Positions 3,915-63,177 of a DNA stretch of 64,000 nucleotides are shown here, in pieces. Positions within the stretch are counted from its first letter, which is position 1. Every line of letters begins with the position of its first letter. This DNA is from a virus. The position numbers and the translations under genes were made by a program. The stretch spans positions 1 through 64,000 of the IMG/VR virus record IMGVR_UViG_3300046673_000164; one strand, 5' to 3'. The notes under the pieces are model-generated. The model saw only the letters and a list, made by a program, of their open reading frames with translations, was not told the DNA's origin and searched no databases.

Positions 3915-3935
3915 CACTTCCCCTCCGCTGTTTTG

Positions 3936-4388
3936 TTATGGTCCCGCAATAGTCGCGTCTCTATTCTCGTTGGCCACGATGACACAACAATACCAAGTCC
4001 CATTGTGCCCCCGAGTAATCCCGGCCCCGTAATGGTCCCACTTCCGCGAGGCGACGAACCAATGACCCTCCGGCCCCTCTTGGTTCCGTACTTGGAACCA
4101 GCCATCAAACATCTGTTTTCCAATCGACAGCGGAGTATCACCCGCGGCGGGCTCCCACGATTGGTCACAGATCTCCCGCGGATCGGCGTCGGGCCAGAGG
4201 CCAAAGATTTGCCGGGCTCGGGACTCAAAGCCCTGGTGCCCTTGCCCGTAGCGAGCCATGTATTCCGCGTGCTCTTGAGCCATTTCCGCCAGCACTGGAT
4301 GCCATGCCGATTCGCAGACGCGGGCACCGTTGAACGCTAGCCCAGCGGCGATCAGTCCTTCCAGAGGTGTTTGGGGCGTGGCGGTCAC
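3936..4388 (-). CDS. CAP-domain (SCP/PR-1-like) protein
   Basis: The product shows the CAP superfamily layout: an HPVLAEMAQEHAEYMARYG helix with conserved His and Glu, a second motif around GQMFDGWFQ-like residues, and HWFVASRKWDHYGAGITRG followed by NGTWYCCVIVAN, the usual CAP core ending. The GTG at 4388 overlaps the upstream stop (GTGA) and gives 150 residues; an in-frame ATG at 4439 would give 167. No signal peptide is visible. CAP proteins have varied, often secreted roles. Here it sits between peptidase-like genes, suggesting a cell-envelope function. Confidence 0.7.
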   Translation of the reverse strand: MTATPQTPLEGLIAAGLAFNGARVCESAWHPVLAEMAQEHAEYMARYGQGHQGFESRARQIFGLWPDADPREICDQSWEPAAGDTPLSIGKQMFDGWFQVRNQEGPEGHWFVASRKWDHYGAGITRGHNGTWYCCVIVANENRDATIAGP

Positions 4389-15513: not shown

Positions 15514-16439
15514 CACCCAAAGATTATCCGACCCAGACTCAGAAGCAGCGGAGCGAAGCCCTCCGACGAATTGTAGGGCTCGCTGAACGCGTCGATCATT
15601 TCCAACACGCGGCCGGCAACCTTGTCGCTACTGGCTCCAAACGCCGCAGTCGTCAGGTAAGCCAGAGTCACCAGCCGTATACTTTCGGGGTTCTGCTCGC
15701 GCAACGGCTCCAGCAGCTTGATCGCCTTCGCCCAAGTCAGGCCCTTGACCAGAGCGCGGGCCAGCACAATTGCGTCGCCTTCCTCGTCCGCTTTCTGAAG
15801 TAGCGGTAGAGCCTCCTTCGCAGTCTTGCATCCATAGCACTGAGCCAGATAGGTCAAGGCTCGTCGCGGCGACCCGAACGACTGCCGGGCGACCACCGCC
15901 AGAACTTCGTCCGGCGTCTGGTAGTCCTCCGCCTCCCGCACCTTCTCCAGCAGCTCAATCAGCAGATCGACGCAGACCGGCTGCAAACCGAAAGAGGTGC
16001 AGCGAGTCTCAATCGTCTTCGGTATCTTTCCCGGCTCAGTCGTACAGAACACCCAATACACGTGCGGGGGCGGCTCCTCGACCGACTTCAACAAACTCTG
16101 CCAAGCCTGCTTGCTCAGGGCGTGGGCCTCATCGATCACGATCACCTTGGCCGTCGACTCTCCGAATCCCTTATAGGCGGTCCCGTCAGCGATCTGCCGC
16201 ATGGCGTCGATTCCGGTATGTGTGGCCGCGTCGACCTCCAGGAGATTCTGCGGCTCGCATCCGACCTCTCCTGCGAGGATACGAGCTAACGTCGTCTTGC
16301 CGACTCCACTCGGGCCGGTCAGCAGAAAGGCGTGTGCCGTCTTCTTCTTCAGCACGGCGCACAATCCCTTGACCACCGGAGCTTGACCAAGCACCTCATC
16401 CCAGGTCGTCGGCCGATATTTACGATGAAGATCGCTCAT
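15513..16439 (-). CDS. Clamp-loader ATPase (DnaX-like)
   Basis: The 308-residue protein starts MSDLHRKYRPTTWDEVLGQ, a typical DnaX/RFC N-terminus. It has Walker A GPSGVGKT (42-49), Walker B VIVIDEAHALS, and a sensor-1 region VYWVFCTTEPGKI followed by TIETRC. It lacks the four-Cys zinc module of bacterial DnaX. It probably loads the phage clamp encoded at 19730-20758. It overlaps the polymerase gene by 4 nt. Confidence 0.85.
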   Translation of the reverse strand: MSDLHRKYRPTTWDEVLGQAPVVKGLCAVLKKKTAHAFLLTGPSGVGKTTLARILAGEVGCEPQNLLEVDAATHTGIDAMRQIADGTAYKGFGESTAKVIVIDEAHALSKQAWQSLLKSVEEPPPHVYWVFCTTEPGKIPKTIETRCTSFGLQPVCVDLLIELLEKVREAEDYQTPDEVLAVVARQSFGSPRRALTYLAQCYGCKTAKEALPLLQKADEEGDAIVLARALVKGLTWAKAIKLLEPLREQNPESIRLVTLAYLTTAAFGASSDKVAGRVLEMIDAFSEPYNSSEGFAPLLLSLGRIIFG

Positions 16440-19027
16440 AACTCATCCGAAAAGAAGGTTCCCACAGGCCGCATGTCGGCCCAGTTCTCGCCTATCTTCA
16501 CTTCCACACTCATCGGCACATTGACCCAATCGAAGGCCGGAGTCAGCATTTCGCGGACGATCTCCTCTTGCAGCCCCTCCAAGCGATCCTTTGGAATATA
16601 AAACTCTAGGTCATCGTGCAGATCGATCACGGCCTGGAACGCCGGCTCCTCCTCCTTCTCCGCCCGCACCGACAGGCGGTTCATCGCCTCGACCACCAAG
16701 TCGCTGGCCACTCCCTGCGTGATGTTGTTGAGTAGCTGGTTGGTGCTCAACGGAGCCCGCCGCCTCCGCCCTGTCAGCCCGGTCACATAGCCGTCATGCT
16801 GATAGTCGGCCAGCTGCTTCTCCTGCCACTTCCAGACACCAGGGAACGCGCCCTTGAACTCCTCAAACAAATCCTCGCATTTTCGAGACAGCTTCAAACG
16901 GGCCGCGATGCTTTCCCAAGCCGCCCCGTAGAAGCCGGCCAACACCCAATTGCTCTTCACGTCCTGCCGCAGCTTCTTCAAGTCGTTTCCATACTCCCGA
17001 TATGCCCTCAGGTCCGCCTTAGCAATCCGTTCCGCCCAGTCGCCATGAATGTCGTGGCGGTCGACGAACGACCTGACCAGCCGCTTATCCCGCGACTCCA
17101 TTGCGATCACCCGTGGCTCGATCTGCCCGTAGTCGCAAGACAATAAAACATGCTTGCAACTAGCCCCGGTTATCGGATGGGTCTTCGGCGCCGTCACAAT
17201 AGCTCGCACCCACGCATCCTCCCGCATGGGGAAGTTCTGTACGTTTGGGTCTTGGCTACTCAACCGGCCAGTCACGGTGAATAGATCGTTGAACTTCGTG
17301 TGCAGCCGCCCGTCCGCATACACTACGCCTCCGACCGGGGCGCAAGGATCGATGTAGGTAGATTTCATCTTGGAGTAAGATCGCAGCCGCAAAACCGCGG
17401 ACGCGATCGGCAGGTCCATCTTCTCCAAAGCGGAGTCATCGACGCTGTATCCGGTCTTGTTCTTCTTCCGCTGCCCCTCCCGCCGGTCGAGTAGGTCGCG
17501 GAACAGAACGACTAGCTGCGGGTTAGAAGTCGGTTCCAGCGGCTTGCCGATCTTCTTCTCGTACAGCCTCGCCTCGCGGCTGTCGGCAATCTCCAACAAA
17601 CATTGATCGATCTTCCGCTGCATCTTCTTCTGAAACTTGGCCACCGCGTCAAAGTCCACCACCAGGCCCTTCTGCTGCGCCCTGACCAGCGTCAAACATC
17701 GACGGAGGTGTAGTTTGTATGCCTCCTGTAATCCCTCCTGCTCAATCTCTTCCGCCTGGACATGATACAACTTCGCCTCATACTTTGCGTCCAGCGCATT
17801 ATACTTCAGTAGCCGGTCGATGCCTTCCTCCGCCAGCCGAGACCGATCCACGTTGCTTTGGCTTTTCAGCCGGAATCCGAATCGGTGCAGACAGCAGTCG
17901 TCGAGGCTGAGGCCGCCCCGCCGCTCATCCAGAACGTAAGCCTGCGACATCGTATCGCCCCATCCGGTCCGCCGCCATCGCGGGTTATGCCCATATATTT
18001 GTGTCATCCACTCCAGCTCGAACGGAAGGCTATGGGCGACCTTAACACATTTTGAACGGAGGAATTGCAACACTAGGTCTTTGGCCCGATGCCAATCATC
18101 GGGAGACCATCTGGCGTCCTTGTGGCAGATCGGCAAGGCCCACGTGATCCGGCCGTCGGAGAAGGCTATTGACAGCCAGCCGTTGACGGGGGGCAGCATA
18201 TACGGCCGGAGGGCCTTGGTTTCTATGTCGAAAGCAATGATTGCTCTTTCGGCAACCCAAGCCGCTAGCTGCCTCCCCAAACGAGTTAGCCCGCTAGAAT
18301 CCCTGGCGTAGCGTATACCGCGATCCAGGCCGTCGAGGGGTTCTAGGGTAGGATCGCCCAAGCCTCGCGTTATACGCGAAGCCAACCCCCTTAAATCGCA
18401 TTTGAAGACTAGGTTCCAATCCTCGTCAGCGTAATTGCTCGACCGCTGGACGAACGACGGGTGGAGGATCGGGTACAGCCAGCAGACATGCTCCCCCGCC
18501 TTGACGGGCATCAGCTTGCCCCGCCACTTGGTGATCGAGGATTCCCCGGTCGCCCACAGCAGGGCAGTCCCGCCGACAGCCAGAATCACCTGCGGCCTAG
18601 CCCGCTCGATGCTGCGGACGACCCGCCTGCGGCATCGCTCGAACTCGACCCGTTCCGGCGTCCGGTTGTCCGGCGGGCGGCAGCGGCAGCAGTTGTCCCA
18701 CCGCAAAGAATCCAGCCCGACCTCTTTCAGAATGGAGCGTAGCAGCCGGCCGGACCTACCAACAAACTGCTCGGCCTTCTTGTCCTCATCGGCTCCAGGC
18801 GCCTCGCCCAACACGTAGATGATAGGATGCTTCTCACCGGTCGGCTTCATCCCAGGGCTAAGCACCTCGTCGGTCAACAACGAGCATCCGTCGCAGCCTC
18901 GCTCCTGGATGGAGGAGTAGTCGATCTCAACCGGAGCAGAACGAGGGTTAGCCTTTCGCGGCCCGAAGCCAACCCGCTTCTTGACCGCCTTCTTCTCAGT
19001 GCGGGTGAAGAATCCGACATCACTCAT
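16436..19027 (-). CDS. Uracil-DNA glycosylase (family 4)-DNA polymerase A fusion
   Basis: From ATG 19027 the protein has 863 residues. Residues 40-200 form a family-4 UDG-like domain: CDGC (45-48), GEAPG (74-78), a second Cys group (CCRC near 114, Cys132) that would bind an Fe-S cluster, and HPS (189-191). Then follows a 3'-5' exonuclease (DIET at 267-270, later HSLPFELEW and YNALDAKYEAKLY) and a PolA domain with motif A CDYGQIEPRV, a motif B-like KSNWVLAGFYGA and motif C DLHDDLEF. SPO1-type phage polymerases also carry a UDG-like part. This is the replicative polymerase of the phage. Confidence 0.85.
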   Translation of the reverse strand: MSDVGFFTRTEKKAVKKRVGFGPRKANPRSAPVEIDYSSIQERGCDGCSLLTDEVLSPGMKPTGEKHPIIYVLGEAPGADEDKKAEQFVGRSGRLLRSILKEVGLDSLRWDNCCRCRPPDNRTPERVEFERCRRRVVRSIERARPQVILAVGGTALLWATGESSITKWRGKLMPVKAGEHVCWLYPILHPSFVQRSSNYADEDWNLVFKCDLRGLASRITRGLGDPTLEPLDGLDRGIRYARDSSGLTRLGRQLAAWVAERAIIAFDIETKALRPYMLPPVNGWLSIAFSDGRITWALPICHKDARWSPDDWHRAKDLVLQFLRSKCVKVAHSLPFELEWMTQIYGHNPRWRRTGWGDTMSQAYVLDERRGGLSLDDCCLHRFGFRLKSQSNVDRSRLAEEGIDRLLKYNALDAKYEAKLYHVQAEEIEQEGLQEAYKLHLRRCLTLVRAQQKGLVVDFDAVAKFQKKMQRKIDQCLLEIADSREARLYEKKIGKPLEPTSNPQLVVLFRDLLDRREGQRKKNKTGYSVDDSALEKMDLPIASAVLRLRSYSKMKSTYIDPCAPVGGVVYADGRLHTKFNDLFTVTGRLSSQDPNVQNFPMREDAWVRAIVTAPKTHPITGASCKHVLLSCDYGQIEPRVIAMESRDKRLVRSFVDRHDIHGDWAERIAKADLRAYREYGNDLKKLRQDVKSNWVLAGFYGAAWESIAARLKLSRKCEDLFEEFKGAFPGVWKWQEKQLADYQHDGYVTGLTGRRRRAPLSTNQLLNNITQGVASDLVVEAMNRLSVRAEKEEEPAFQAVIDLHDDLEFYIPKDRLEGLQEEIVREMLTPAFDWVNVPMSVEVKIGENWADMRPVGTFFSDEL

Positions 19028-19029
19028 GC

Positions 19030-19386
19030 TTAATCCTCGGCCTGGATGCGGCGGCTGGCCAGATACCGGCGCAGGTTCTTGTGAAAGGGCTGATCCGCCA
19101 GCCAATCGAGATAGTCTAGTTCGATCTCATCCAGCCGCTTCCCGACACACTTTCCGAACAGCATGGGCTGATTGCCGAACTGCCTGGCCTCCTGGTCGGT
19201 CATCGGGCCAAGGTCCGCCCGACTCTTCTTCCGCGGCAGAAGCGGGCAGGCGTCGCGGATCACTTCCCAGAACGCGTCCGCTGAAGGCTCGTCGATATGC
19301 TCGGCTGCCTCAGACCGAATCAGGTCGACCAGCTCCTTGGCCCTTTGCCGGGCGATCACCCTAGCCTTGATTACAGACTCGTCCAT
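19030..19386 (-). CDS. DUF3820/exonuclease X C-terminal-like protein
   Basis: The 118-residue protein ends with MLFGKCVGKRLDEIELDYLDWLADQPF, matching the pattern F-G-K-x-K-G-x-x-L-x-x-I-x-x-x-Y-L-x-W found at the end of exonuclease X-type proteins and in DUF3820. The N-terminal part is helical and lacks an exonuclease core. It lies next to the polymerase gene, 2 nt apart. Function unknown. Confidence 0.6.
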   Translation of the reverse strand: MDESVIKARVIARQRAKELVDLIRSEAAEHIDEPSADAFWEVIRDACPLLPRKKSRADLGPMTDQEARQFGNQPMLFGKCVGKRLDEIELDYLDWLADQPFHKNLRRYLASRRIQAED

Positions 19387-20758: not shown

Positions 20759-21818
20759 ACTGGAAACTCCTTAGTCTGTCAGGACCGCCCAAAGAACGAT
20801 CCGCGAACGACACCAACTTGTATTGTGGGTAGCAGAATATCTTTGGGTCCATGTAATGCTTTACGGTCCACAAGTCGGAAAGCCACGAGCCATCAAACAC
20901 CTGTAACCTGCGCCACGGGACCGTAATCACACCCCCATCCTCAAACAGATTTGTAGGAATTACGAACGGTTTTATTTGATACTCGACGCAGAATCGGATG
21001 TTGATATACGAGTTGACCAACAAACGAAAAGTCCTAGCAGAACACTTGTCTACCCCAGACTTGCGTTTGACGTCGGTCCTAGGCGGCATACTGAAACAGC
21101 TCTCCAGCCCAGTAGCCTCGACAAAGTCGAGGATGTACTTTCGATTCTCGGCTCCGATACCCAACGACTTCAACCACCGATCACGGAGCTTACCATACAT
21201 TTCGCCGCCATGCGCCCGCTCAGAAACATAGATCCGTCTCGGAGCCACCGTGTAGCAGTACTCCCCATCGCGCATCTGAGGAATGAGGATGCCACCCCTA
21301 CCGGCATTCCCAAACGCGCTCGTGCTGTCGCAGGAGAACCATGGGTAGCGTGTCATCAGACCAAACCGAGTCACAGCAAACCCATGCACCTTGACCATCT
21401 CCCCCCTACGATGAAAAATATGGGAGAAAACGGAATCGAGCCATCGAATAAGCTGCTCGTTGCTGACCCGCAGAAGGCCGCCGACCCCCAGATAGTCGAT
21501 ACCACTATCCAAAATCTTGTCCAGCCAATAGACACGCTCGGAGTAATGAAACACCGGCATCGGACTGAAGCCAGATCGAACCATTCGCTGATAGTTCTTC
21601 CAGCTACCCTTAGCGGCCTCCTCCACAATCATCGGGTCGGTTCGACTGCTTGGAATTACGTCGAGGTTCACGTAGGTCTGCAAAATATCCTCGACCTGCT
21701 CGATGTAGTTGCAATACTCGGTCAGATCGACCGTCAGGCCTTTTGTCCAGACCGAGACCGCCCCACTATCAAGCATCATCGTACAAAACAGCTTGTCCAA
21801 ACGCTCTCGTGTCTTCAT
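20751..21818 (-). CDS. dpdA: DpdA-like DNA 7-deazaguanine transglycosylase
   Basis: The 355-residue protein has the TGT-like barrel signature of phage DpdA: Asp17 in MMLDSGAVSVW (equivalent to DSGGFQ of tRNA-guanine transglycosylase), YLGVGG (110-114), and Asp164 in WFSCDSTSA, the likely nucleophile. DpdA exchanges guanine in DNA for preQ0 or a derivative, protecting phage DNA from restriction. The surrounding queC, queD, queE and folE genes make the precursor. It overlaps the FolE fusion gene by 4 nt. I infer the family from these motifs and context. Confidence 0.78.
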   Translation of the reverse strand: MKTRERLDKLFCTMMLDSGAVSVWTKGLTVDLTEYCNYIEQVEDILQTYVNLDVIPSSRTDPMIVEEAAKGSWKNYQRMVRSGFSPMPVFHYSERVYWLDKILDSGIDYLGVGGLLRVSNEQLIRWLDSVFSHIFHRRGEMVKVHGFAVTRFGLMTRYPWFSCDSTSAFGNAGRGGILIPQMRDGEYCYTVAPRRIYVSERAHGGEMYGKLRDRWLKSLGIGAENRKYILDFVEATGLESCFSMPPRTDVKRKSGVDKCSARTFRLLVNSYINIRFCVEYQIKPFVIPTNLFEDGGVITVPWRRLQVFDGSWLSDLWTVKHYMDPKIFCYPQYKLVSFADRSLGGPDRLRSFQYV

Positions 21819-22714
21819 TTTCCTCGTGCTCCAGACAAGAACTCCTCGCGGGCCTTTGCGTCATCCTTGAAGACTCCTCGCAAAGCGCAGGTAGAAGTGG
21901 TAATGCCCGCCTGATGAATGCCGCGGCTCTCCATGCACGTGTGGCGGCACTCAATCAGCACCGCCACGCCCTTTGGCTCCAAGCCGTTCTGTAGGGCGTC
22001 GGCCACCTGATTGGTCAAGCGCTCCTGCACTTGCAAACGATGGGAGTAGATGGAGACAAGACGACTGACCTTGCTCAGCCCCACAATCCGATCGTTGGGG
22101 ACATAGGCAACGTGCGCGACGCCGAAGAAGGGCGCTAGGTGATGCTCACAAAAGGACCATAACGGCACGTCCCGCAGCAAAATCATCTCGTCATACTTCT
22201 CCGCCCCGTCCGCGAAGCTGTGGAGTATCTCGGCGGGGTCTTGCTTGTAGCCAGAAGTCCAATGCTGCCACGCCTTAGCGAAGCGCTCCGGCGTCTTGAG
22301 CAGCCCTTCCCGCTTTGGGTCCTCGCCGATATACTCCAGCAGCCGGGTGGCAATGTCCATGCCAGATGATAACGACCCGTCGCAGCCCTCTTGCTTCTCC
22401 CAGGGGAAGACGACCCACTGCGACGGATCATCTTTAAGATGCAGGGAGAAGAAGGGCTTGTCGGGATACCGCTGCCGCCAGACCTCTTGCGTGCGACCAG
22501 AGTCGACAATATCATCGACAATGACGGCTGCCAACTCAGGATCATCTGCCGCTTCAATCCGCTCAGGGAACAAGCTACTGAGCAGCATGGCCACGATCGT
22601 CCCGCCACGGGGCACCCCATGCACCACCACGGGCAAGGGGAGGGGCGTCGCCAGAATTGCTCTGCCTAGCGCTCGCAGCTTTTCCTGAGTCCGCCGTATC
22701 GTTAGGTCCAGCAT
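21815..22714 (-). CDS. folE: Phosphoribosyltransferase-GTP cyclohydrolase I (FolE) fusion
   Basis: ATG 22714 follows GGGAGAG with good spacing and gives 299 residues. Residues 1-105 are a type I phosphoribosyltransferase: [10 protein letters not shown] near 30 and the PRPP loop [13 protein letters not shown] (63-75). Residues 118-299 are GTP cyclohydrolase I with zinc ligands Cys189 and His192 in [10 protein letters not shown] and Cys260 in [10 protein letters not shown]. FolE makes dihydroneopterin triphosphate, the first step to preQ0. The fused PRT may act on a purine to feed GTP or on a pathway intermediate; this is inference. Confidence 0.85.
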
Positions 22715-22883
22715 CGCTTCTCTCCCGATGAATGGCAGCGTAGACTTCCTGCCGATGAACAGAAACTTCTTTCGGCGCCTCGACTCCGAGGCGTACCTTA
22801 TCCCCACGAATCTCGACGATCGTGATAGTAACATCGTCTCCAATCACGATCGCCTCACCCCGATGACGCGACAGAACCAGCAT
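22575..22883 (-). CDS. csrA: CsrA/RsmA family RNA-binding regulator
   Basis: Residues 1-53 match Csr[21 protein letters not shown], then [20 protein letters not shown]. CsrA dimers bind GGA motifs in mRNA leaders and alter translation or stability. The frame continues to 103 residues with a low-complexity tail that overlaps the first 140 nt of the FolE fusion gene. The tail may be a by-product of the overlap or of a frame error. It lies between queC and folE. Targets could be host or phage transcripts; GGA motifs are common in this phage's leaders. Confidence 0.85.
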
Positions 22884-22910
22884 AGATCGTCCCTCCTTAA
22901 ACAAAGAATC

Positions 22911-23603
22911 CTACAAACCCTTGGCCCTCGCCACCAACGGATCGACAATACCGGCCTCGGCAAATCCCTTGGCCCGCAGCAAACAGGCATGACAATGACC
23001 GCAGGGCGGGAAGACGCCGTTATAGCAGGTATGGCTATAGGCCAGAGCTTCCATGCACTCCGGCAACGCAGCAGCCAACTCAACTGTCTTCTTCTTGCTG
23101 AGGAAGAGTACCGGAGCCCAAATAGCTAACTCCGATTCCCCAGCAGCGTGATGAATCGTCTTGTTGGCTGAGATGAGAAACTGCTCCCGACAATCGGGAT
23201 AACCACCAAAGTCTTCCTGACTCACCCCTACCACCAAAATCCTGGCGCCATGATGATAAGCGCGGTTGGCGGCCAGGGTCAGGAACAAAAGATTACGCAT
23301 AGGAATGAAGGTGGCTTCGATCCCTCCCGGCAAGACCTCCGCCGAGGCGTACTGGACGACATCGACGCTCTTATTCACCAACGGACTGGAGGATTGAAGT
23401 ACGCCATCGGGCAGCAGCAACAACTCCCGCTCAACGTCGGCCATCTCCGCCACCTTCCACGACGCTTCGATCTCGCAGCAATGCTTCTGCCCATAGAAGA
23501 TCGACAGCGCCTTGACTTCCGCTTTCCCCCACCGCCGAATTGCAGCATACAAGCAGGTCGTCGAATCCTGCCCGCCAGACAATAACACAATGGCTTTGGT
23601 CAT
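22911..23603 (-). CDS. queC: QueC, 7-cyano-7-deazaguanine (preQ0) synthase
   Basis: The 230-residue protein has the PP-loop SGGQDST (9-15), FYGQKH, a FIPMRNLLFLTLA segment and a C-terminal zinc site CYNGVFPPCGHCHACLLR, all typical of QueC. It converts CDG to preQ0 with ATP and ammonia. Length matches bacterial QueC. A TTTGTATATCTA motif and AAGGAGG precede the ATG, and a strong terminator isolates it from the upstream gene, so it probably opens its own transcript with csrA, folE and dpdA. Confidence 0.93.
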   Translation of the reverse strand: MTKAIVLLSGGQDSTTCLYAAIRRWGKAEVKALSIFYGQKHCCEIEASWKVAEMADVERELLLLPDGVLQSSSPLVNKSVDVVQYASAEVLPGGIEATFIPMRNLLFLTLAANRAYHHGARILVVGVSQEDFGGYPDCREQFLISANKTIHHAAGESELAIWAPVLFLSKKKTVELAAALPECMEALAYSHTCYNGVFPPCGHCHACLLRAKGFAEAGIVDPLVARAKGL

Positions 23604-51977: not shown

Positions 51978-53375
51978 CTAGTACGGGTCGGACCAAGTGG
52001 GCGTGGCAACGTCAATGCTGCGGTTCTGGATCACGAACCTAGGATCGCGGACGGCAGGAATCCCCATCTCGTCTACGAACATCGAGAAGACCAATCCACG
52101 GTCGGCCATTTCATAGGAGGTCGGGGCGGCACGGGTTATGGTCAAAGGCAAGTTCTCGATGTACATGAACGCCTTCTTGAAGTTGCCCGCGAGCCACAGC
52201 TCATCGGCGGCCGTCACGCCGGTGGCCTGGATGGTGTCGCTGTTGAACAGCGACAAGTTCTGCTGCGTGTCGATCAGCTTGATGAGGCCGACCGGGTTGG
52301 CGTTCTGGTTGTAGTCCGTCAGCCGCTTGTAAGCGTACTGGCTGACCATCGGAGCGTTCCATTGTCCGCTGATCGGGTTCTTGCCGTAACCCAAAGGAGT
52401 GCCCACATCGGTCGTGTTGGAAAGGCTTCCTTGGCGCACCTGGGTGTCGCTGAGGATTTTCTCCATTGTCGCCTTGCGGGCCGGCATGACGATCAGGTCC
52501 TTGGCCTCGACGCTGATCGGCTGGCCGGTCTCGGGGTCGACCATGCGGCTGAAGTATTTGTAGACCGCGTCGAGGCAGGTCCAATCCGCGATCGGGTTCA
52601 AGAGCAGGTTCACCCACAAGCCGTAGCCCGCCTGGTTGGAAATGGCGTAGGTGTAGTAGTTCGTTCCATCGTAGGTGTAGGTGTTCTTGATGCCGAGCAC
52701 CGTGTCCCACATCAAGTATTCCTTGCGGAGAGCCAGGGTTTGGCTGACCATTTCGGCGTGCTCCATCACCTGCCGGGTCAGGTCGAACATGATCGCTTCG
52801 CGGGTCACGTCGACGGCGTTCGCCCGGTTCTTGGTAATGGGCGTGGTCACGTACCGCTCGCTCATCTGGGCGCGCGGGTGCGTCTGGCCAGGCTTGCGCT
52901 CCTGGGCGGCATCCGCCGGCACGCTGATGCCGATGAACTTCTCTTGCACCTTGTTACTAGGCACGTTGGTGGCCAGTTGCGGGGCGAGGAACTCGGGGCG
53001 GTTGTACGCTTCCAGAATCTTGACTTCCAGGAGGCCGGCGACGGTCTCGTTATAGGCTGTGATGTCGGCGAACTGCGACGGGACGATGTCATTGCCTGCT
53101 TCCAGGACGTCGCCTTCCAACTCCTGGAACTTCGGCGCCGGCTGCGAAAGCCTCCGTTCGATATTCTGCTCGCCGAAAATGGCGCAGGCCAATCCCTTGA
53201 GTGAGACGCCGTCCGGCTTGATCTGCTGGCTTTCCAGCACGGGCCGACCCTCGGGATCGCGGTACTTGATGCCCTTGGCGTTGCGAAGGCCGAGTAGGCT
53301 GTGCATGCTACGGACAAATCCGACCGGGCCGCGGTCGGCATACATCCGTCGAGCGTAGTCGATCGAAAATGCCAT
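51978..53375 (-). CDS. Major capsid protein
   Basis: A 465-residue protein placed after the protease/scaffold and decoration genes. It has the HK97-like spread of features: an N-terminal helical arm (MAFSIDYARRMYADRG...), a region FIGISVPADAAQERKPGQTHPRAQMSERYVTTP, an E-loop/spine region and a C-terminal RGLVFSMFVDEMGIPAVRDPRFVIQ. Terminators on either side suggest high and separate expression, as usual for a capsid gene. Confidence 0.75.
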   Translation of the reverse strand: MAFSIDYARRMYADRGPVGFVRSMHSLLGLRNAKGIKYRDPEGRPVLESQQIKPDGVSLKGLACAIFGEQNIERRLSQPAPKFQELEGDVLEAGNDIVPSQFADITAYNETVAGLLEVKILEAYNRPEFLAPQLATNVPSNKVQEKFIGISVPADAAQERKPGQTHPRAQMSERYVTTPITKNRANAVDVTREAIMFDLTRQVMEHAEMVSQTLALRKEYLMWDTVLGIKNTYTYDGTNYYTYAISNQAGYGLWVNLLLNPIADWTCLDAVYKYFSRMVDPETGQPISVEAKDLIVMPARKATMEKILSDTQVRQGSLSNTTDVGTPLGYGKNPISGQWNAPMVSQYAYKRLTDYNQNANPVGLIKLIDTQQNLSLFNSDTIQATGVTAADELWLAGNFKKAFMYIENLPLTITRAAPTSYEMADRGLVFSMFVDEMGIPAVRDPRFVIQNRSIDVATPTWSDPY

Positions 53376-54420: not shown

Positions 54421-55722
54421 TTATCGATTGCTGCCAGCCATCAGCAGCATCGCGTCCTCTTTGATCTGCTCCGCTGTCGGAGCATGGGTCTTCTGCGGCT
54501 CGCTGCGGGCCGACTCCAACACGCTGCCAGACTTCGGCTTGGCAGCCGCGCTCGGCTTGATCGTCTTCCACGTAGCGGCCAGCTCGGCTCGGTTAGTCTC
54601 GGGAACCGCCAGCAAGAGCTTGATGTACTTGCTGCTGGGCGCCACGCCGGCGGACTCCAGCACGTCGAGGGCCTGGACATAGTCGGGCTTGTCCTTCTTC
54701 GGCTTCTCCACCGGGGGCTCGGCCACGCTCTCGGCCGCTTCCTCTTCCCCGCCCGGCTCCTCGCCGCCTTCGGGGCCTTCCTCGGGCTCTTCCTCCTCCG
54801 GCGCCTCGTCGGACAAGGCATCGATGATCGCGTCGATCTTCTTCTTCAAGTCGTTGAGAAGCTGCTTGCGCTGCCCCTTGTCCGCGGTCGACTTGATCGT
54901 CGGCAGGCACTTGGCCAACAGGGCGTCAATCGCCACGTCGACGGGGTCTTGCTCAAGCTCTGCGCTCGGCTCGGGCGGCGTATCGGTAATCGGCTGACCA
55001 TCTTCGCCGTTCGGGGCCTGGGTGTTGGGATCGGCCATGTTCGGATTCTCGCTTTCAAAGATAGAGGATGTGGTCGCAGGATCGGCCACGAGGTCGACCG
55101 ACCGCACCCGGACAATAGATTCGTGAATGACGCCGCCAGCCTCGTCGGGAACCTGGATCGTGCGGGCGTTCTGAGAGAAGCCCAACGCCTCGGGCATCCG
55201 CTCGGCGGCCTCACAGACCATCTCGGCCAGCAGATGGCTTTTCAGGTAGTGCAGGTCGGCATAGGCTCCATCGCCTCTGACCACATAGTTGTGGTAGATG
55301 CCGAAGCGGTCGGCCACCAGGCGGTCACGGCCCGGCTTGTCCCGCTCGGGATGGTTGATGTTGCACTTGGCGCCCTCGTACATCGCGCGGGCCTCGCTCA
55401 GGGCCTCCAGCGTGTAGCGGCCACCATTCTTGCTCTCCAGGCCGCAGAGCTTGACGCCATAGATGACGCCCTCCTCCCGGTCCACGCGGCAAGGCTTGTC
55501 CTGCCTGACAAACTCCATCACGTCCCGCTCAATCTTGCGGGGGGCGATAGAAGGATCGGCGGATTCATTAACGTTCTTGGCTCCGCCCTTCGGCTTGATC
55601 TTGCCCTGCTGGATCATAATGGCGACCCCCTGCTTCTGCGCCTTCTTCTTGGCGCCCTTACCCGTGTAAACCTTCCCGCTCTTGCCCCACCGTTTCCCGC
55701 CCTTAGCTTTTTCAACCGGCAT
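54421..55722 (-). CDS. Prohead protease/scaffold fusion
   Basis: From ATG 55722 (GGAG upstream) the protein has 433 residues. The N-terminal part (about 1-215) contains a protease-like region with CNINHPERDKPG, GDGAYADLHYLKSHL and VRVRSVDLVADPATTSSIFE, typical of phage prohead proteases. The C-terminal part is an acidic, coiled scaffold-like segment (EEEEPEEGPEGGEEPGGEEE) ending in helices. Protease-scaffold fusions are common in phages. The catalytic residues are not certain. Confidence 0.65.
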   Translation of the reverse strand: MPVEKAKGGKRWGKSGKVYTGKGAKKKAQKQGVAIMIQQGKIKPKGGAKNVNESADPSIAPRKIERDVMEFVRQDKPCRVDREEGVIYGVKLCGLESKNGGRYTLEALSEARAMYEGAKCNINHPERDKPGRDRLVADRFGIYHNYVVRGDGAYADLHYLKSHLLAEMVCEAAERMPEALGFSQNARTIQVPDEAGGVIHESIVRVRSVDLVADPATTSSIFESENPNMADPNTQAPNGEDGQPITDTPPEPSAELEQDPVDVAIDALLAKCLPTIKSTADKGQRKQLLNDLKKKIDAIIDALSDEAPEEEEPEEGPEGGEEPGGEEEAAESVAEPPVEKPKKDKPDYVQALDVLESAGVAPSSKYIKLLLAVPETNRAELAATWKTIKPSAAAKPKSGSVLESARSEPQKTHAPTAEQIKEDAMLLMAGSNR

Positions 55723-55735
55723 TTCCCGCTCCAGC

Positions 55736-55776
55736 AAATAAAAAGAGCCGTCGAAGTGTCGAGCCCTCGACGGCTC
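55736..55776 (-). terminator. Strong terminator just before the protease gene
   Basis: GAGCCGTCGA (55745-55754) pairs perfectly with TCGACGGCTC (55767-55776). On the minus strand TTTTTATTT follows directly. It stands 14-20 bp before the protease start, so it either ends the upstream operon or attenuates the next one. Confidence 0.88.
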
Positions 55777-55829
55777 CTAGTTGCTCCCGTCCCGCTAGGC
55801 TGGCCAGCTAAGCGGCGGTTCTATCGCAA
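55740..55829 (-). ncRNA. Promoter-driven structured RNA ending at a terminator
   Basis: A transcript from the promoter at 55835-55862 would run about 90 nt: GTTGC...GCAAC closing a helix, inner near-perfect hairpin CGCTTAGCTGG/CCAGCCTAGCG, then the terminator stem. No ORF fits. It may be a small RNA or an attenuating leader of the protease-capsid operon. I do not recognise it as a known riboswitch. Confidence 0.5.
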
Positions 55830-55834
55830 CTTTT

Positions 55835-55862
55835 ATTATAACCTAGAAACTCAATTCACCAA
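55835..55862 (-). promoter_or_regulatory. Promoter upstream of the structured RNA
   Basis: On the minus strand TTGGTG (55862-55857), a 16-bp spacer, and TATAAT (55840-55835) followed by AAAAG. It lies in the gap behind the GT-MT-GT gene and before the 90-nt structured RNA. Confidence 0.6.
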
Positions 55863-55871: not shown

Positions 55872-58154
55872 TCATTCCCCGTGGAAATAAGCTAAGTCGA
55901 TGCGGTACTGCTTGATGATCTCGTCGTCCTCTTCCCGCTGAGTCTTCCCGTTCGGCATCCGCCGGCAGCCGATGGGCTGCTTGAGCGGACGCATATGGCA
56001 AGCCTGAACCCCGTCGACGATTCCGATCCGCACCCGATATTCCGGCCAGAGGTAGGCCAGGCCCCATCCGCTCTCTGTGAGCTGGAAGGTGTCGATGCAC
56101 TGCTCCAAGCCGCGGCGGCGGAAGAAGGGCATCATCAGCTCGACGAACCGACCGTTGCGAACGATACTCCTATTCTGGACCGCCAGGTGCGGCCAGCAGT
56201 TGACGCTGTCGATAGAGAGGGCTGGCTGCCATAGGTCGAGGTTGCATGCGTAGCCGATCTGGAACAGCTGATTGATCTGCTTCGTAGACAATTCCACATC
56301 GTCGTCAAGGAAGCAGACCGCTTCGTACTTCTGCCAGATGCCGTCGAGCAGGTGGGTGGCGGAGTAGAACTTTTCTTCATCGACAGAGAAATCCCAATCA
56401 GCAAACGCTTCAATATTAGCAAACGGATCGGGGCCTTTCCAGCGATTGACCGCGACGTCGAATAACCGACCATTTCCGAACAGTTCAGCTTTGCAGCTCC
56501 CATCAGAAGACAGATAGACCAGGAAACGGTTGCGTGGGTTCGGCTCCCAAAGCTTCTGCGGCTTATGCTCTCCGCCAACCAGCTTCATCATTTCTTTGTC
56601 CTTCTGAATGCGACAAGCTTCTCCAGCGGCAGCGGCCTTTTGCAATAGCAGGTTGTTGCGATCCTCGGAAAGAACTTCTCCTAAAACTGGGGACACAATA
56701 GCTTCATGCAAAGCGCGATCAGTGTGATCCAACAACTCGCCCACAGCCCGATGCATGTCGGTTACCGTTTCGATTCGATAGTAGACCATCAAGGTCTCGC
56801 GGAAGTAAGGCAATGTGTTGACCCGCTTGCGGAACTCCTGCTCTGCTTGCCGATTGCGGGCGAAACCATAATCCAGCATCTTCGCCTCGACATACTCGTT
56901 CGTCTGGCAGTTGACATGACCCTGTCCGATCTGACCGGGAACGGCCCAACTCAGGATGACCTCGTGGCGGGCCGCATAGCAGATATTGTCGAGGAAGATC
57001 GATTCATACTTCTGCGGGATGTGCTCGCCGACTTCCAAGCAGAGCACGCGATCCCAAACGCCGAGGCCGCAGTTCTTCTCCGCCAGGTCAACGACGTAGG
57101 TGTCTTTGGCCCATTGCCTGACGTCGGGGTTGCCGTCGAACCCGCAGCAGTTGATCCCGGCCGCCTGCATCGCCTTCAGATAATGGCACCGACCACATCC
57201 GGCGTCAGCCACCGACACATCCCCGCAATACTCCACAATCGCCGAGGCCAAGCCAGAATCGAACAGGGCTCCATCTGGCGCGTCGTCCAGCCAGTAGCCA
57301 TGCTCGTGGATGCGGAGCGGCTCGTGGGCTGCCTGTTTCTGGAAGTCGGGCTGTGAGGCTCGCACTCCACATTGGTCCTGATCCCAGTCGCCCCACGGCA
57401 TCTCGTTGGTGAAGGGTAGTTCGCCGTAATGTCGCAGCTTGACTTTGCGGGTGGCAAACAGCTTGGCGCCTGCCTCATTGAGGACGCGGCTGAGCAGCCA
57501 GTCCTCGGTCTCGGTTTGGGCACACCATCCCTTGCCAGGAATAAACACGATGCGGTTCCTAATCTCGAAGTGGGCCGCCAGCTCCCCACGGTCACCCACC
57601 TCCTTGAACCATGGCTTGCGTAGGTCGATCAGCATACATCCTGTATTTAGCAGCAGCGCATATCCCTTCCCCTCCTCGCCCAGGTCCTTGACGCTGAAGG
57701 TCTCGGGCAAGCCGTGAATCTCCCGCATGGTGATCCGGCACCATGGGTTCCAGGGGCTGTCTATGCAACTGATCGCTGTGCTCGTCGTCCCATGCACATC
57801 CTTGATCGGGCTAATGGCCGCGATCCAGTCGGCGCCGGTCGCCAACATCTCATCGTAGAGGATGTCGACCCACCACGGGGCGGATATGTCGGCGTGGAGG
57901 ATGGCCAGATGCGTAGACAGGCCCTCGTCGCGTTTGTTAAGAGCGAAGCATAAGCCCTGGTTGAACCCATGAGCCAGGTTGCTGCATGGCATCGGATCGG
58001 CACGAATCAGGCTCTTCCCCTCGCACTTGGACGCCTCGACAAAATAGCTCTTGGCGGCTGCCGGATGCACCGGCCCGAAGGTCGGCATGAAGGTGGAAAT
58101 GATGATCTTCTCTTTTTCAATGGGCTTCCAACAACGTCCCTGCGTTTCTTCCAT
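55872..58154 (-). CDS. Glycosyltransferase-methyltransferase-glycosyltransferase fusion
   Basis: From ATG 58154 (GGGAG upstream) the protein has 760 residues. Residues about 20-260 resemble a GT-A glycosyltransferase (HLAILHADISAPWWVDILYDEM; later AQTETEDWLLSRVL). Residues about 315-460 hold a SAM methyltransferase (VADAGCGRCHYLKAMQAAGINCCGFDGN, then VLCLEVGEHIP). Residues about 540-760 resemble a second glycosyltransferase with AVCFLDDDVELS. It lies between the portal/MuF genes and the protease, and so may decorate virion proteins or host-surface sugars. A three-enzyme fusion in a capsid operon is unusual. Confidence 0.7.
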   Translation of the reverse strand: MEETQGRCWKPIEKEKIIISTFMPTFGPVHPAAAKSYFVEASKCEGKSLIRADPMPCSNLAHGFNQGLCFALNKRDEGLSTHLAILHADISAPWWVDILYDEMLATGADWIAAISPIKDVHGTTSTAISCIDSPWNPWCRITMREIHGLPETFSVKDLGEEGKGYALLLNTGCMLIDLRKPWFKEVGDRGELAAHFEIRNRIVFIPGKGWCAQTETEDWLLSRVLNEAGAKLFATRKVKLRHYGELPFTNEMPWGDWDQDQCGVRASQPDFQKQAAHEPLRIHEHGYWLDDAPDGALFDSGLASAIVEYCGDVSVADAGCGRCHYLKAMQAAGINCCGFDGNPDVRQWAKDTYVVDLAEKNCGLGVWDRVLCLEVGEHIPQKYESIFLDNICYAARHEVILSWAVPGQIGQGHVNCQTNEYVEAKMLDYGFARNRQAEQEFRKRVNTLPYFRETLMVYYRIETVTDMHRAVGELLDHTDRALHEAIVSPVLGEVLSEDRNNLLLQKAAAAGEACRIQKDKEMMKLVGGEHKPQKLWEPNPRNRFLVYLSSDGSCKAELFGNGRLFDVAVNRWKGPDPFANIEAFADWDFSVDEEKFYSATHLLDGIWQKYEAVCFLDDDVELSTKQINQLFQIGYACNLDLWQPALSIDSVNCWPHLAVQNRSIVRNGRFVELMMPFFRRRGLEQCIDTFQLTESGWGLAYLWPEYRVRIGIVDGVQACHMRPLKQPIGCRRMPNGKTQREEDDEIIKQYRIDLAYFHGE

Positions 58155-58161: not shown

Positions 58162-58173
58162 CTCCCGAAGCTA
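58162..58173 (-). promoter_or_regulatory. TAGCTTCGGGAG leader motif
   Basis: The minus strand reads TAGCTTCGGGAGAAAGC just before ATG 58154. GCTT and AAGC can pair around CGGGAGA, which would hide the ribosome binding site in a small hairpin loop. Same sequence as at 59545-59556. Confidence 0.55.
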
Positions 58174-59322
58174 AGGTTTACCAACGCTAATCCCAAACCT
58201 AAGATATACAGTTTCGTCTGCCCCTTTGTCTCGCCAATTCGCCAGCCAGTCCTTCCAGCGGATCAGCACCTTGCCAGGAGCAGCGATATTGCCCGTTCCT
58301 TTTGCTTCACCCTTCGGCACGCTGCCGCCCGGCACGTTCTCTACATTCTCAATAGAGCTATCCTGGCAAATGACATAGCCGGGGAGCATGCCGATGACCG
58401 TCAGCCAGTGACCGCCCCCGTAGTCCTGCGCTGGGCAAATAACCGGCCGCCCCGCCGCGATGGACCTCGAAAGGTCAGTGATCGTCTGGTTGGGGGCGGC
58501 CGTCACCTGGAGGCCGAGACGAGTTAGGTAAGTCTCGATGGCCTTGGCCGACGTGCTCTTCTCTCCGGTCGTACCCACCGCCTTCTTCCACGCTTCGATG
58601 TCGTCAGGGCCGACGCCAAAATACCTACCGACCGACATAGCAGCGGCCGCTCCACAGCTCCAATGGTCCGGCTGTCGAACGTCGGGTACGTCGAGGATGG
58701 TGATTTGCTGTTCCTTAAAAGACTCCATCACACTGCCAAGATAGTCCAGCCAGCATCGACAGCGTGGATGCGCCGGAGGCCCTGCGGGGAAGTCCAACGA
58801 CCAGACGTCTTGCGGCTGCCCATCCAAGGGTTCGCACTCCTCGCACACAAGGTCGTCCTGCGCCGTGATCCAGTTAACTTCCTCCGGCCCCAACATGCCG
58901 GCCAAGACCATAGATGAGACGACGCCAAACTCTCCGGCCGTGTTGGCCCTCGTGGTCTCGGTAATAGCGATCTTCTCCGCCCGCTCCACATCGAACTGAT
59001 CGTCAAGGTCCTCTCCAGCGTCAGCCAGCTTCCTCGTGTTGTCGATGATCTGCTTCGCCAGCTCCTCGCAGTAACCCTCGGACCAGCGGGCAGACAGCAG
59101 CCTGGGATCGGCGTCTAGGTCGTTCGCAATCTGGCTGCGAAGTCGAGTGAAGGCGAGGTCATAGGTTCCGGCCAGCTGTGGCCTGATCGCCGCCTCTAGA
59201 TCAATGCGGAAGTCCTCCCAGTTGATTGTAGCCGGCTCCTGCTCCTCATAGTCGCGGAACAAGAGAATCAGCGCCGCGACTAGCGCCCGCTCACGATCGG
59301 CTCTTTCTTTGAGGTCTGGCAT
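58171..59322 (-). CDS. MuF-type head morphogenesis protein fused to a C39-like peptidase
   Basis: The 383-residue protein starts with a MuF/SPP1 gp7-like part (about 1-195): AEKIAITETTRANTAG, then a metal-type CEEC (160-163) and HPRCRCW (185-191). Residues 212-375 look like a C39/papain-like peptidase: Cys223 in DHWSCGAAAAMSVGRYFG, His305 in YGGGHWLTVIG and Asp321 in ICQDSS. MuF proteins sit inside the capsid next to the portal and some carry C-terminal toxin domains. This effector could be injected with the DNA. It follows the 59323-59538 gene by a direct join. Confidence 0.8.
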   Translation of the reverse strand: MPDLKERADRERALVAALILLFRDYEEQEPATINWEDFRIDLEAAIRPQLAGTYDLAFTRLRSQIANDLDADPRLLSARWSEGYCEELAKQIIDNTRKLADAGEDLDDQFDVERAEKIAITETTRANTAGEFGVVSSMVLAGMLGPEEVNWITAQDDLVCEECEPLDGQPQDVWSLDFPAGPPAHPRCRCWLDYLGSVMESFKEQQITILDVPDVRQPDHWSCGAAAAMSVGRYFGVGPDDIEAWKKAVGTTGEKSTSAKAIETYLTRLGLQVTAAPNQTITDLSRSIAAGRPVICPAQDYGGGHWLTVIGMLPGYVICQDSSIENVENVPGGSVPKGEAKGTGNIAAPGKVLIRWKDWLANWRDKGADETVYLRFGISVGKP

Positions 59323-59562: not shown

Positions 59563-61374
59563 TTATGGATAGCTCCGCCAATCGACCTTGGAAGCTTTGG
59601 CCAAGGATTCGTACTGGTCTGTCTCTTGCGGCACAGCGCCCTCATTGCTCATCGGCTTGCTCTTCCCCATACCCGACGCCCCGACGGCCTTGACCGCACT
59701 GATTGGGTCCTGCCGTGGCTTGGCCCCTTGCTTGACCTGCTCGTCGTAGTCGACACCTTCGCGGGTTCCCAGCTCAACCGGAGAGATAATCCCCGCGTCC
59801 AATAGCAGGATTCCCCGCTGCGTCTCCTTCATCCGGTCCCGCACGTCCACTTGCTGGGGCGTCACCATAACATCAACTGCCCGCCGGATGTCGCTCCAGG
59901 CATAATTCCCAAGCCGACCAATCTTCCAGTTGAACCACAACACCTTCCAGTACACTTCCTTCCACAAACCGACGTGCCAGCTCTGCCGTGTCTCAATATG
60001 CTTGACGAATGGCGAACCCGCCTCCAAGATCGAGGCATAGTTGTTGTTCCCGGCGTTGCCCGTAATCATATGCTCCGGCATCGACCATATCTGCGCCACG
60101 GACCGCAGCATCGCTTCGTAGATCGCCACCAATCCAGCGGCCATGCTCTGCTGTACCCAGGGCGGAGGCACAAACTTTTGGTTGGCTCCCAGATAAAGCG
60201 AGGTTCCCGGCTGATAGGTCTGTTGGTAGCTGGTCCGCACGCCCCCGTTCTGTGTCGCGGTCCGGGTGCTCCAATCCGCCGTCGACATGGTGGCCGAATT
60301 GACTTGCGACTGCGTCGTACCGGGCGCCAGCTCCCTAATCCAAGCGATGGCAGCCTGTAACGCTCCGGCGTGGGTCAGGTTGCGGATCATCTTACGGGCC
60401 AGCTCCACATCACCGGTCACAGGCCAGAAATCGCTCACCCCCCGCTTGATATTACGGTCGGTGTTGGCTTTGAGTAAGCACATCCACTTATTGCCGCCGT
60501 CGGCTGGAGGATAGCAGGGTTGATTGCCTCCCGGCATATAATCCCAGTTCTCCAGCGATCCGTCCCACTGCACATAGTAGCCGTGCTTCGATCCGACATC
60601 ACCTGCCGTCGTATGGATGCCATAGGACCAGTTGCTCACGAAGCCGAGTCCTGACTCGTCATCCTGGGAGTGCAACCAATCCTCCAAGCCGCCTGGATTG
60701 GTCGGCTCGCTGACCTGATCCGGCTCTACCATGCGCGCCTCGACCCGCCCCTCTCCACGGTGCCACAGTCCGATGAACAGCTCTCCATCGCGGCTATGGC
60801 GGATGCACCCTTCCTGGTCCATCGGCAGCTCGGCAGATCGGCTGCCGCCGGTCACGCTGTTTAGTTCGTCGAACTCGTCCAGGATATTGGTGATCGCATC
60901 CAGCAGCTCCTTAGGCGCGTCCCGTTTGCTCTCTGCCTTGCGGGTGAATCCGGTCTTACCGACCACATAGTCACGCAGCTTGTTGAGAACCCCAAAGGTG
61001 GTCTTGTTGTAGGCGGCCAGTAGCCGGACCGTCCCACGGATCGCGGCCAGCTCCGCCTCGCTCGTCCAATAGGGCCAGTTACGGCCATCCTGGCGGTCGG
61101 TCTTGGTCGTAAAAGTAGCCGCATAGGCCTGATAGCCATAATTGTCTCGGCGGTAGTCCTCAATGTCTATGTAGTCCTCAGGGGCGTATAGGCCCTCCAT
61201 TGTCTCCTGTGGGCCGGCCGAGCCGAAGCTGCGGCTTCCCGCCTCCAAGGCCAGGGCACGGTCGAGCTGCTTGAATTGCGCTTCTTGCACCCGCAGGTCC
61301 ATCTTAATCTGATTGGCCCGATACTGCGCCTCCAGGACGTCGACGGACTCGGGCTCTTGCGTTTCGGTCGGCAT
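59563..61374 (-). CDS. Portal protein (lambda gpB-like)
   Basis: From ATG 61374 (AGAAGGAA upstream) the product has 603 residues. The region YAATFTTKTDRQDGRNWPYWTSEAELAAIRGTVRLLAAYN, the VKHIETRQSWHVGLWKEVYWKVLWFNW helix and YASILEAGSPF match lambda-like portal proteins. Portals form the dodecamer through which DNA is pumped. It lies between the terminase and MuF genes. Confidence 0.8.
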   Translation of the reverse strand: MPTETQEPESVDVLEAQYRANQIKMDLRVQEAQFKQLDRALALEAGSRSFGSAGPQETMEGLYAPEDYIDIEDYRRDNYGYQAYAATFTTKTDRQDGRNWPYWTSEAELAAIRGTVRLLAAYNKTTFGVLNKLRDYVVGKTGFTRKAESKRDAPKELLDAITNILDEFDELNSVTGGSRSAELPMDQEGCIRHSRDGELFIGLWHRGEGRVEARMVEPDQVSEPTNPGGLEDWLHSQDDESGLGFVSNWSYGIHTTAGDVGSKHGYYVQWDGSLENWDYMPGGNQPCYPPADGGNKWMCLLKANTDRNIKRGVSDFWPVTGDVELARKMIRNLTHAGALQAAIAWIRELAPGTTQSQVNSATMSTADWSTRTATQNGGVRTSYQQTYQPGTSLYLGANQKFVPPPWVQQSMAAGLVAIYEAMLRSVAQIWSMPEHMITGNAGNNNYASILEAGSPFVKHIETRQSWHVGLWKEVYWKVLWFNWKIGRLGNYAWSDIRRAVDVMVTPQQVDVRDRMKETQRGILLLDAGIISPVELGTREGVDYDEQVKQGAKPRQDPISAVKAVGASGMGKSKPMSNEGAVPQETDQYESLAKASKVDWRSYP

Positions 61375-61464
61375 ATTCAATTCCTTCTAGGATTAGTTTT
61401 AACCCGTTTGTTTTCGCGTTTAACGCCTTCCCGAAGTCCTTTCGATAATCTAGCCCAAAAACGC

Positions 61465-61872: not shown

Positions 61873-63177
61873 CTAGACAAGGGCGCTAGTAACCATCTCC
61901 TCTTCGAGAGCGTGCTCCAAGCCCTCCTTATTCAATCCTCGCTGGAATACTTCCCGCATTAGTCTGACCGCCATTTCCAAGGCATCTGGGCCGTCATCGT
62001 GAATCTTCGGCAACGGGAATCCGCGCAGCTGCTCGATCAGTAGCCTGGTGCCCGGCGTATTACGGAAGCGGAACTCATGCCTGCTGAGGTAGGGTGTCAG
62101 AGTCGCCCTGATCCGAATCAGCTTATTGTCCCGGTTGTCTAGTGGCCACACCGGAAGGCCGAGGCCGTTCTTACCCTTGCTCTTCTCGTAGAGCTGGTCG
62201 GCCAGCATGACCTGCCACATATTGGACTCGATGCCTACAGCCGAAGGCTTGAACCAGCGAGCCAAGTCGATCACCGTGTCGCATATCTGCATCCGGTCCT
62301 GGCGGAGTAGCTGCCCCTCGACCCACATCACGCCGTCGCGGTCAAGGCCCATCAGAACATGCGCCTGGTAGTCGCTCTTGTCCGTCTTCCCCAGTGACGG
62401 ATCGCAGGTCTGAACCCGATAGACGAACTGCCGCTCAAGCTCCGGCCAGTCCTCGAACCACATATCGTCGGGGAAGTAAAGAGCTGAAAACTCCGCTCCT
62501 GCCATATTGACGAACTGGGCCATATGCTCCTGGGAGAACATCGCTTCACCCATATCCAAGAGCGCCTCATCCAGTTCATCCTGATCGATAAGCGGGTTGT
62601 CGCTGGTCGGCTTCTGCCACCGCTCCCACTGGCCCTTCGTGTCCCTTCCTGCCCTATCGAATAGCTCCTTGAACCAATTGAACCCATTAGGCGTGCCGAT
62701 GTGGATCGTCCAGCCCTTCTTGTCCGCCAATGCGGGACGTAGGGCAGCCTTCCAGGCGTCCTCAGCCACAAACGCGGACTCATCAATCACCAGACCATCC
62801 AACCCTTCCCCGCGAAGGCTATCCGGATTATCTGCTGACTTGACTTCAATAGACCCACCGCCTGGGAACTCAATCCGACGTTCCTGCTCCCCCTTGTCGC
62901 TCCAGGCATTCTTACTAGCCCGCTTCAGCTGCCGCCAGATGATATTGCTAATTGGGAAAGTAGGAGCCACCCACCAAATCGTCCCCCCATCCAACGCACC
63001 CTTGAACCAGCCACGCTCTGGTCCATGTCCCTTGATAGTGGCGAGCAGTCCAGTCCCAGTCTTTCCCCACCGCCTTCCACACACCACTACTTTATGGCGA
63101 GCAGAAGACAGAAGCACCCTGCGCTGGTGTGGCAGGGCCTTAGGAAGGCTGATTGTCCTCTGGATGGCTGTTACCAT
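61873..63177 (-). CDS. terL: Terminase large subunit
   Basis: The 434-residue protein has Walker A CGRRWGKT near residue 33, Walker B LDGLVIDESAF near residue 130, and a nuclease-type Asp in VQTCDPSLGKTDKSDYQAHVLMG with a later VGIESN and DALEMAVRL. All are standard in phage packaging motors. It overlaps the small subunit gene by one base (TAATG). Headful or cos packaging cannot be told from this sequence. Confidence 0.88.
   Translation of the reverse strand: MVTAIQRTISLPKALPHQRRVLLSSARHKVVVCGRRWGKTGTGLLATIKGHGPERGWFKGALDGGTIWWVAPTFPISNIIWRQLKRASKNAWSDKGEQERRIEFPGGGSIEVKSADNPDSLRGEGLDGLVIDESAFVAEDAWKAALRPALADKKGWTIHIGTPNGFNWFKELFDRAGRDTKGQWERWQKPTSDNPLIDQDELDEALLDMGEAMFSQEHMAQFVNMAGAEFSALYFPDDMWFEDWPELERQFVYRVQTCDPSLGKTDKSDYQAHVLMGLDRDGVMWVEGQLLRQDRMQICDTVIDLARWFKPSAVGIESNMWQVMLADQLYEKSKGKNGLGLPVWPLDNRDNKLIRIRATLTPYLSRHEFRFRNTPGTRLLIEQLRGFPLPKIHDDGPDALEMAVRLMREVFQRGLNKEGLEHALEEEMVTSALV

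Follow-up and report, generated by a model that had tools for sequence, protein, structure and literature searches.

What does a protein that joins two glycosyltransferase-like domains and a methyltransferase do among the head genes of a phage? We addressed this question for one gene of an uncultivated bacterial virus, in the IMG/VR record IMGVR_UViG_3300046673_000164 (64,425 bases), using positions 1 to 64,000, hereafter the window, which is the whole stretch of 64,000 nucleotides that was analysed.

A three-domain gene in the head gene cluster

We found that the gene order runs from TerL through the portal, a MuF domain fused to a C39-like peptidase, the fusion gene and a protease/scaffold-like protein to the major capsid protein (Table 1). 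The first-pass annotation had described one chain with a GT-A-like domain, a SAM methyltransferase and a second GT-like domain, lying between MuF and the protease and inside the capsid operon. The three-domain chain is confirmed as a single frame of 760 residues and so is its position, with the refinement that the MuF neighbour is itself a fusion with the peptidase. As for the operon, the gene does lie in the head gene cluster, but it is the last one before a terminator-like hairpin of 14 bp. Because this strong hairpin stands 3' of the gene, the fusion gene is probably the last of the upstream unit, closing terL-portal-MuF. No comparable hairpin was found in two relatives, the L055 locus having none on the coding strand and the L104 locus a weak one. 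Some 50 bases ahead of the hairpin of the window, there is a perfect TATAAT (55743-55845, minus strand), which could yield a very short RNA. The MuF proteins of L055 and L104 are without the C39-like peptidase domain. The capsid protease/scaffold-like role of the downstream neighbour is suggested by its position.

Table 1. Positions in the window of the fusion gene, its domains and motifs, and the neighbouring features.
Feature	Position	Strand	Basis
Whole fusion gene, 760 aa	55872..58154	-	One stop-free frame, ATG 58154
Domain 1, residues 1-270, predicted GT-A glycosyltransferase of unnamed phage family	57345..58154	-	AlphaFold2, PDB comparison, 69 homologues
H87-A88-D89, HxD at the DxD place, directly after strand 82-86	57888..57896	-	H and D each 69/69; strand in model
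E217-D218, opens helix 217-227, place of GT-A catalytic base	57501..57506	-	68/68 each; helix in model
H242, place of third GT-A metal/nucleotide ligand	57429..57431	-	67/67
Domain 2, residues 283-460, predicted class I SAM methyltransferase, Methyltransf_23-like	56775..57308	-	Pfam, conserved SAM motifs
D317-A-G-C-G321, SAM motif I	57192..57206	-	D317, G319, C320 100%, G321 97% (78 homologues)
Linker, residues 461-545	56520..56774	-	GC and GC3 below those of domains
Domain 3, residues 546-760, DUF707-related GT-A domain, perhaps impaired	55875..56519	-	AlphaFold2, PDB comparison, tblastn
D617-D618-D619, DDD motif	56298..56306	-	100/98/98% of 46 homologues
Ala700 (GCC), Asp in 44/46 homologues	56055..56057	-	Start of helix 169-176 of C model
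TerL	61873-63177		
Portal	59563-61380		
MuF domain fused to C39-like peptidase, upstream neighbour	58171..59322	-	Pfam PF04233 5.2e-7, PF13529 4.9e-7
Putative capsid protease/scaffold-like protein, downstream neighbour	54421..55737	-	PHROG_29592, function unknown, 1.7e-12
Terminator-like hairpin, 14 pairs + U-run, between fusion gene and protease	55743..55778	-	-25.4 kcal/mol, z -4.45
Major capsid protein	51978..53375	-	Pfam Phage_capsid_4 1.3e-7

The sequence GGGAGAAAG stands immediately 5' of the ATG at 58154, and an alternative TTG start at 58196 would give 774 aa and overlap the MuF gene. An identical copy of all 760 aa is present in IMGVR_UViG_3300037095_000019, and residues 1-156 are identical in 3300037182_000005, where the contig ends. 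Since the identical protein recurs in other IMG/VR contigs, a chimera or a sequencing slip is unlikely, and the fusion gene is real and, so far as we can judge, not a product of misassembly. Relative to the L055 homologue (58% amino acid identity in domains 1-2), the differences at the three codon positions are 0.34/0.28/0.58, which is the pattern of a constrained protein. A profile comparison gave no support for domains 1 and 3 being mutual copies (probability 0.5%). The fusion protein was without a match in PADLOC, and the mad2 matches of its relatives there were taken as the common methyltransferase fold.

Elsewhere in the window, we observe a RecA interrupted by an intein-like stretch (12133-13695, minus strand; Pfam RecA 2.3e-35, Intein_splicing 6e-8) and a family A DNA polymerase whose chain also contains, close to the N-terminus, a domain of the uracil-DNA-glycosylase superfamily (16436-19105, minus strand). 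The genes for GTP cyclohydrolase I and QueC are adjacent (21815-23603, minus strand), which suggests 7-deazaguanine DNA modification.

Folds and conserved residues of the three domains

The AlphaFold2 model of domain 1, built from 56 sequences, has a pLDDT of 92 and a pTM of 0.88. Its top PDB match is A197 of the archaeal virus STIV (PDB 2c0n; Z 16.6, 175/191 residues, rmsd 2.8), followed by human LH3, COLGALT1 and mimivirus R699 (Z 14 to 16), which at about 6-10% identity are alike in fold only, and many GT-A enzymes are found at Z above 11. The residues H87, D89, P116-D119, G122, T124, E217, D218, T235 and H242 are invariant across 69 aligned homologues, and the window protein has all of them, including an acidic residue that opens the acceptor-side helix, and the late His. 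The DxD metal motif is absent from domain 1 and is replaced by an HxD that is invariant in the 69 homologues. The DxD motif varies in some GT-A enzymes, and the GT-A assignment therefore stands despite the HxD. The domain 1 part of the window protein has no Pfam, PHROG or NCBIfam match, and the profile of its family matched no chain among PDB sequences; the name thus rests on fold and motifs, by which domain 1 is a well-supported candidate glycosyltransferase of GT-A fold. Judged from the conserved Glu/Asp at the helix start, it is probably inverting.

Like domain 1, A197 is virus-encoded, has a GT-A fold and is proposed to act on a capsid protein; it is essential, and its proposed substrate is the glycosylated coat protein of STIV (PMC10551542, PMC4187194). 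The catalytic base of A197 is Asp151 (PMC4187194), to which E217-D218 would correspond by their position in the model rather than by alignment. The two proteins share 16% identity and differ in that A197 has a DxD; it belongs to a different kind of virus and is without the methyltransferase and third domain of the window protein.

Domain 2 resembles Pfam Methyltransf_23 (1.8e-4) with 21.7 bits, under the curated cut-off of 27, which its L055 homologue passes with 35.3 bits. Motif I and the acidic end of strand 2 are present, with D317, G319, C320, G321 and D340 conserved; E374, E377, H378 and H413 are also conserved across the 78 relatives, in which C323 is usually Gly. A class I SAM methyltransferase is well supported by these motifs. 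The family is common in phages (at least 476 loci confirmed), and in the other loci examined it stands alone, as a gene no longer than 264 aa. Its close relatives are mostly stand-alone and adjoin terminase, RusA or ParB genes, not capsid genes; on its own, the methyltransferase family therefore has no tie to heads.

The model of domain 3 (pLDDT 83, pTM 0.82) matches GT-A enzymes, with ppGalNAc-T2 and BcsA at Z about 12 and A197 first in Foldseek. Searching with domain 3 by tblastn returned plasmid-borne rhizobial proteins, one of them annotated DUF707 (3e-12), as well as a family with members in Ruegeria, Rhizobium, Nocardia and others; among viral contigs, a single further one yielded a relative. 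Domain 3 and DUF707 (PF05212) share about 30% identity and the motifs DDD, R-x5-E-x-M-x-P and H-x-R-P. PF05212 itself gave no match to the window protein up to E 1, although two relatives (L004 and L189) do match it, and domain 3 is further unlike DUF707 in being fused inside a phage protein and in its catalytic-position Asp having become Ala. The domain retains DDD, E672, M674, P676, D714 and H720, while Ala700 replaces a nearly invariant Asp of G-x-G-x-D, the usual place of the GT-A catalytic base; the two remaining of 46 relatives have one Glu and one Ser there. An interferon match of the domain 3 profile was taken as chance.

These results bear out the GT-A-like domain (by fold, by the match to A197 and by the invariant catalytic residues) and the SAM methyltransferase (by its intact motif and the residues conserved in 78 homologues). 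For the second GT-like domain with a DDD motif, the fold and the DDD hold and the catalytic-base Asp does not. The first-pass annotation had named a lack of conservation of the DXD-type and SAM residues as refuting its reading; in domains 1 and 2 such residues are kept and the reading is not refuted, with the reservation that the motif in domain 1 is HxD.

A predicted glycosyltransferase family associated with head genes

From IMG/VR, a degenerate DNA pattern built on the PIKD..G.TST motif recovered about 70 contigs encoding relatives of domain 1, at 30-62% identity. A DNA pattern for NTGC..D gave no domain 1 relatives, and scans of viral contigs with a single protein (whole protein, domain 1 or domain 3) gave only same-phage copies. 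Across 50,697 phage-isolate records, tblastn of domain 1 returned chance matches only, above E 1, and two other family members used as queries against these records found nothing. About 700 sampled bacterial genomes from two phyla, scanned without a positive control, gave partial weak matches to domain 1 (E 7e-5 or worse). Among 56 family members, three weakly match phrog_1574, of function unknown, and in NCBIfam there is one weak match in the family, to the mycofactocin glycosyltransferase MftF.

Fusions were tallied over 73 family genes, a set from which near-duplicates were removed and in which the window counts as one. A methyltransferase is fused in 24/73, with 12 in the order GT-MT24, eight MT24-GT and four GT-MT23, so that other members carry Methyltransf_24 as the fused domain; one such domain matches TylF, and the Methyltransf_23 and Methyltransf_24 families include TylF and CmcI-type sugar O-methyltransferases. 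In several further members, a methyltransferase gene is found nearby in the same orientation. Because the joining occurred independently, in both orders and with two unrelated families, it points to one pathway to which glycosyltransferase and methyltransferase would both belong. In L056, L081 and L095, the glycosyltransferase domain is fused instead to a domain matching the iron-sulfur SPASM family (L056, Pfam 1.8e-4), perhaps a radical SAM partner.

Related loci carry varying versions of this arrangement. In L055, a GT-MT protein between MuF and the protease continues into a phosphoribosyltransferase domain (Pfam 2.1e-6) and a stretch recognised by eye as HAD-like, while in L104 the same place holds a glycosyltransferase alone. 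In L072 and L052, which are one phage from two samples, the protease is followed by the glycosyltransferase and a separate methyltransferase gene, an unfused pair, and in L045 the order is MuF, protease, glycosyltransferase, another gene and then a capsid protein. Looked for in these related phages, the fusion is present for its GT-MT part at the same locus in L055, where the third module differs, and is absent from L104 and L072. Going by these sequences, the third module at this chain position changes among related phages and is exchangeable. We also considered MuF as a general partner of the family and rejected it; since MuF is present in only 2/30 family contigs, its adjacency is a feature of the clade of the window, not of the family. 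Two further genes were observed at these loci: the L104 portal protein (1254-4025, plus strand) apparently has an intein, read from the sequence as a long insert, and directly 3' of the tail-tube gene of L052 lies a sulfotransferase-like gene (6914-7555, plus strand) with a KTAGSS motif recognised by eye, possibly another virion-modifying enzyme.

Next, we examined the neighbours of the glycosyltransferase. Leaving out the window's own clade, we took the 119 proteins that flank it (two upstream, one downstream), and as control 119 proteins flanking stand-alone domain 2 genes drawn from other phage groups. Capsid Pfam families account for 17/119 in this sample of fragmentary contigs and non-independent members (11 Phage_capsid_4, five Phage_capsid, one GP7), and 1/119 in the control (Fisher's test, p-value = 4e-5; p-value = 8e-4 if up to three further control capsid matches fall outside the 25 control families listed, which include terminase, RusA and ParB). 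The same flanks contain seven cement, about nine head-tail joining or completion and three portal proteins, and PHROGs agree. The glycosyltransferase is on the terminase strand in all 17 contigs with a clear terminase and downstream of it in 16 (median 6.4 kb), though one phage is represented twice among the 17, and a common strand is frequent for the late genes of phages. Members of the domain 1 family thus lie among head genes in many phages.

Proposed role of the fusion protein

The folds of domains 1 and 3, the conserved residues, the methyltransferase fusions and the head-gene neighbourhood are computed results, and the reading we prefer, which we hold to be narrowly probable, is that the fusion protein decorates the virion head by glycosylation plus methylation. 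The fusion protein would be made together with the head proteins. In the cytoplasm, domain 1 would take a sugar from a nucleotide sugar supplied by the host and attach it to a head protein; the likeliest acceptors are the major capsid protein, MuF or a decoration protein. Domain 2 would then use SAM to methylate the attached sugar, which would be capped or masked in this way, and domain 3 would either extend the glycan without the lost Asp or only bind sugar or acceptor. Here we infer which molecule accepts the sugar, which sugar is donated, in what order the reactions run and how the phage benefits. The sugar/methyl reading of the first-pass annotation is strengthened for domains 1 and 2 (fold, catalytic residues, SAM motif, repeated fusions) and weakened for domain 3 by the missing catalytic Asp. 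Of its options, glycosylation of virion proteins gains support from the family lying among head genes in many phages and from A197 being the closest solved structure.

A variant compatible with virion decoration, whose probability comes close to even without reaching it, is that enzymatic activity is confined to domains 1 and 2, domain 3 being a dead GT-A fold that binds sugar or protein and brings the acceptor. With Ala700 opening the helix that carries the base in GT-A enzymes, at a position where 44/46 relatives have Asp, the activity of domain 3 is doubtful and the domain may be inactive; the exchange of modules at this place also favours the variant. However, DDD and H720 are kept, two relatives have Glu or Ser at position 700, and retaining glycosyltransferases require no such base.

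The other option of the first-pass annotation is a change of the host surface, which would come late in infection. The glycosyltransferase domains would add or alter LPS, capsule or O-antigen sugars, and capping of these by the methyltransferase would prevent released progeny or rival phages from binding. In bacteria, the relatives of domain 3 adjoin genes for GT25, UDP-galactopyranose mutase, a flippase and pyruvyl transferase, as in surface-polysaccharide loci, and DUF707 has been noted in an LPS outer-core locus (PMC4172580). Nevertheless, we consider this explanation unlikely: no membrane anchor or export signal is evident on reading the fusion protein by eye, domain 1 adjoins head genes even in unrelated phages, and the phage family as a whole is without domain 3, apart from the one other viral contig. 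It is very improbable that a small molecule or a hypermodified base in DNA, rather than a protein or surface glycan, serves as acceptor; the GTP cyclohydrolase I and QueC genes would fit it through 7-deazaguanine DNA modification, but they lie about 32 kb away in the replication half, whereas the glycosyltransferase gene and its relatives travel with head genes.

Several observations count against virion decoration itself. The hairpin parts the fusion gene from the protease and capsid genes, domain 3 is without the usual catalytic Asp and has bacterial relatives in surface-polysaccharide loci, and the relatives of domain 2 are mostly stand-alone and away from capsid genes. A precedent in its favour comes from the mycobacteriophages Che8 and Rita, for which glycans are reported on the capsid protein (PMC11256854, citing Freeman et al. 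2023) and where, as proposed for the window phage, phage-encoded glycosyltransferases would glycosylate virion proteins; the glycosyltransferase genes of the related phage Maravista, however, are located towards the 3' end of its genome and away from the head cluster.

Beyond this locus, we tentatively propose, with confidence somewhat under even, that domain 1 represents a widespread family, so far unnamed, of glycosyltransferases encoded in the head clusters of uncultivated phages and repeatedly joined to methyltransferases of unrelated families, and that many environmental phages may have capsids with methylated sugars that have gone unseen. Within such a family, the window protein would be an elaborate version whose third module is exchangeable. 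So far, only a few phage isolates are known to have glycosylated capsids, and a head-gene-tied glycosyltransferase family that occurs in dozens of environmental phages, but did not turn up in the isolate records searched, would, if true, make virion glycosylation a general trait. The domain 1 family offers a concrete set of genes and acceptors, and if general, virion glycosylation would bear on particle stability, sticking to surfaces, clearance and recognition by antibodies.
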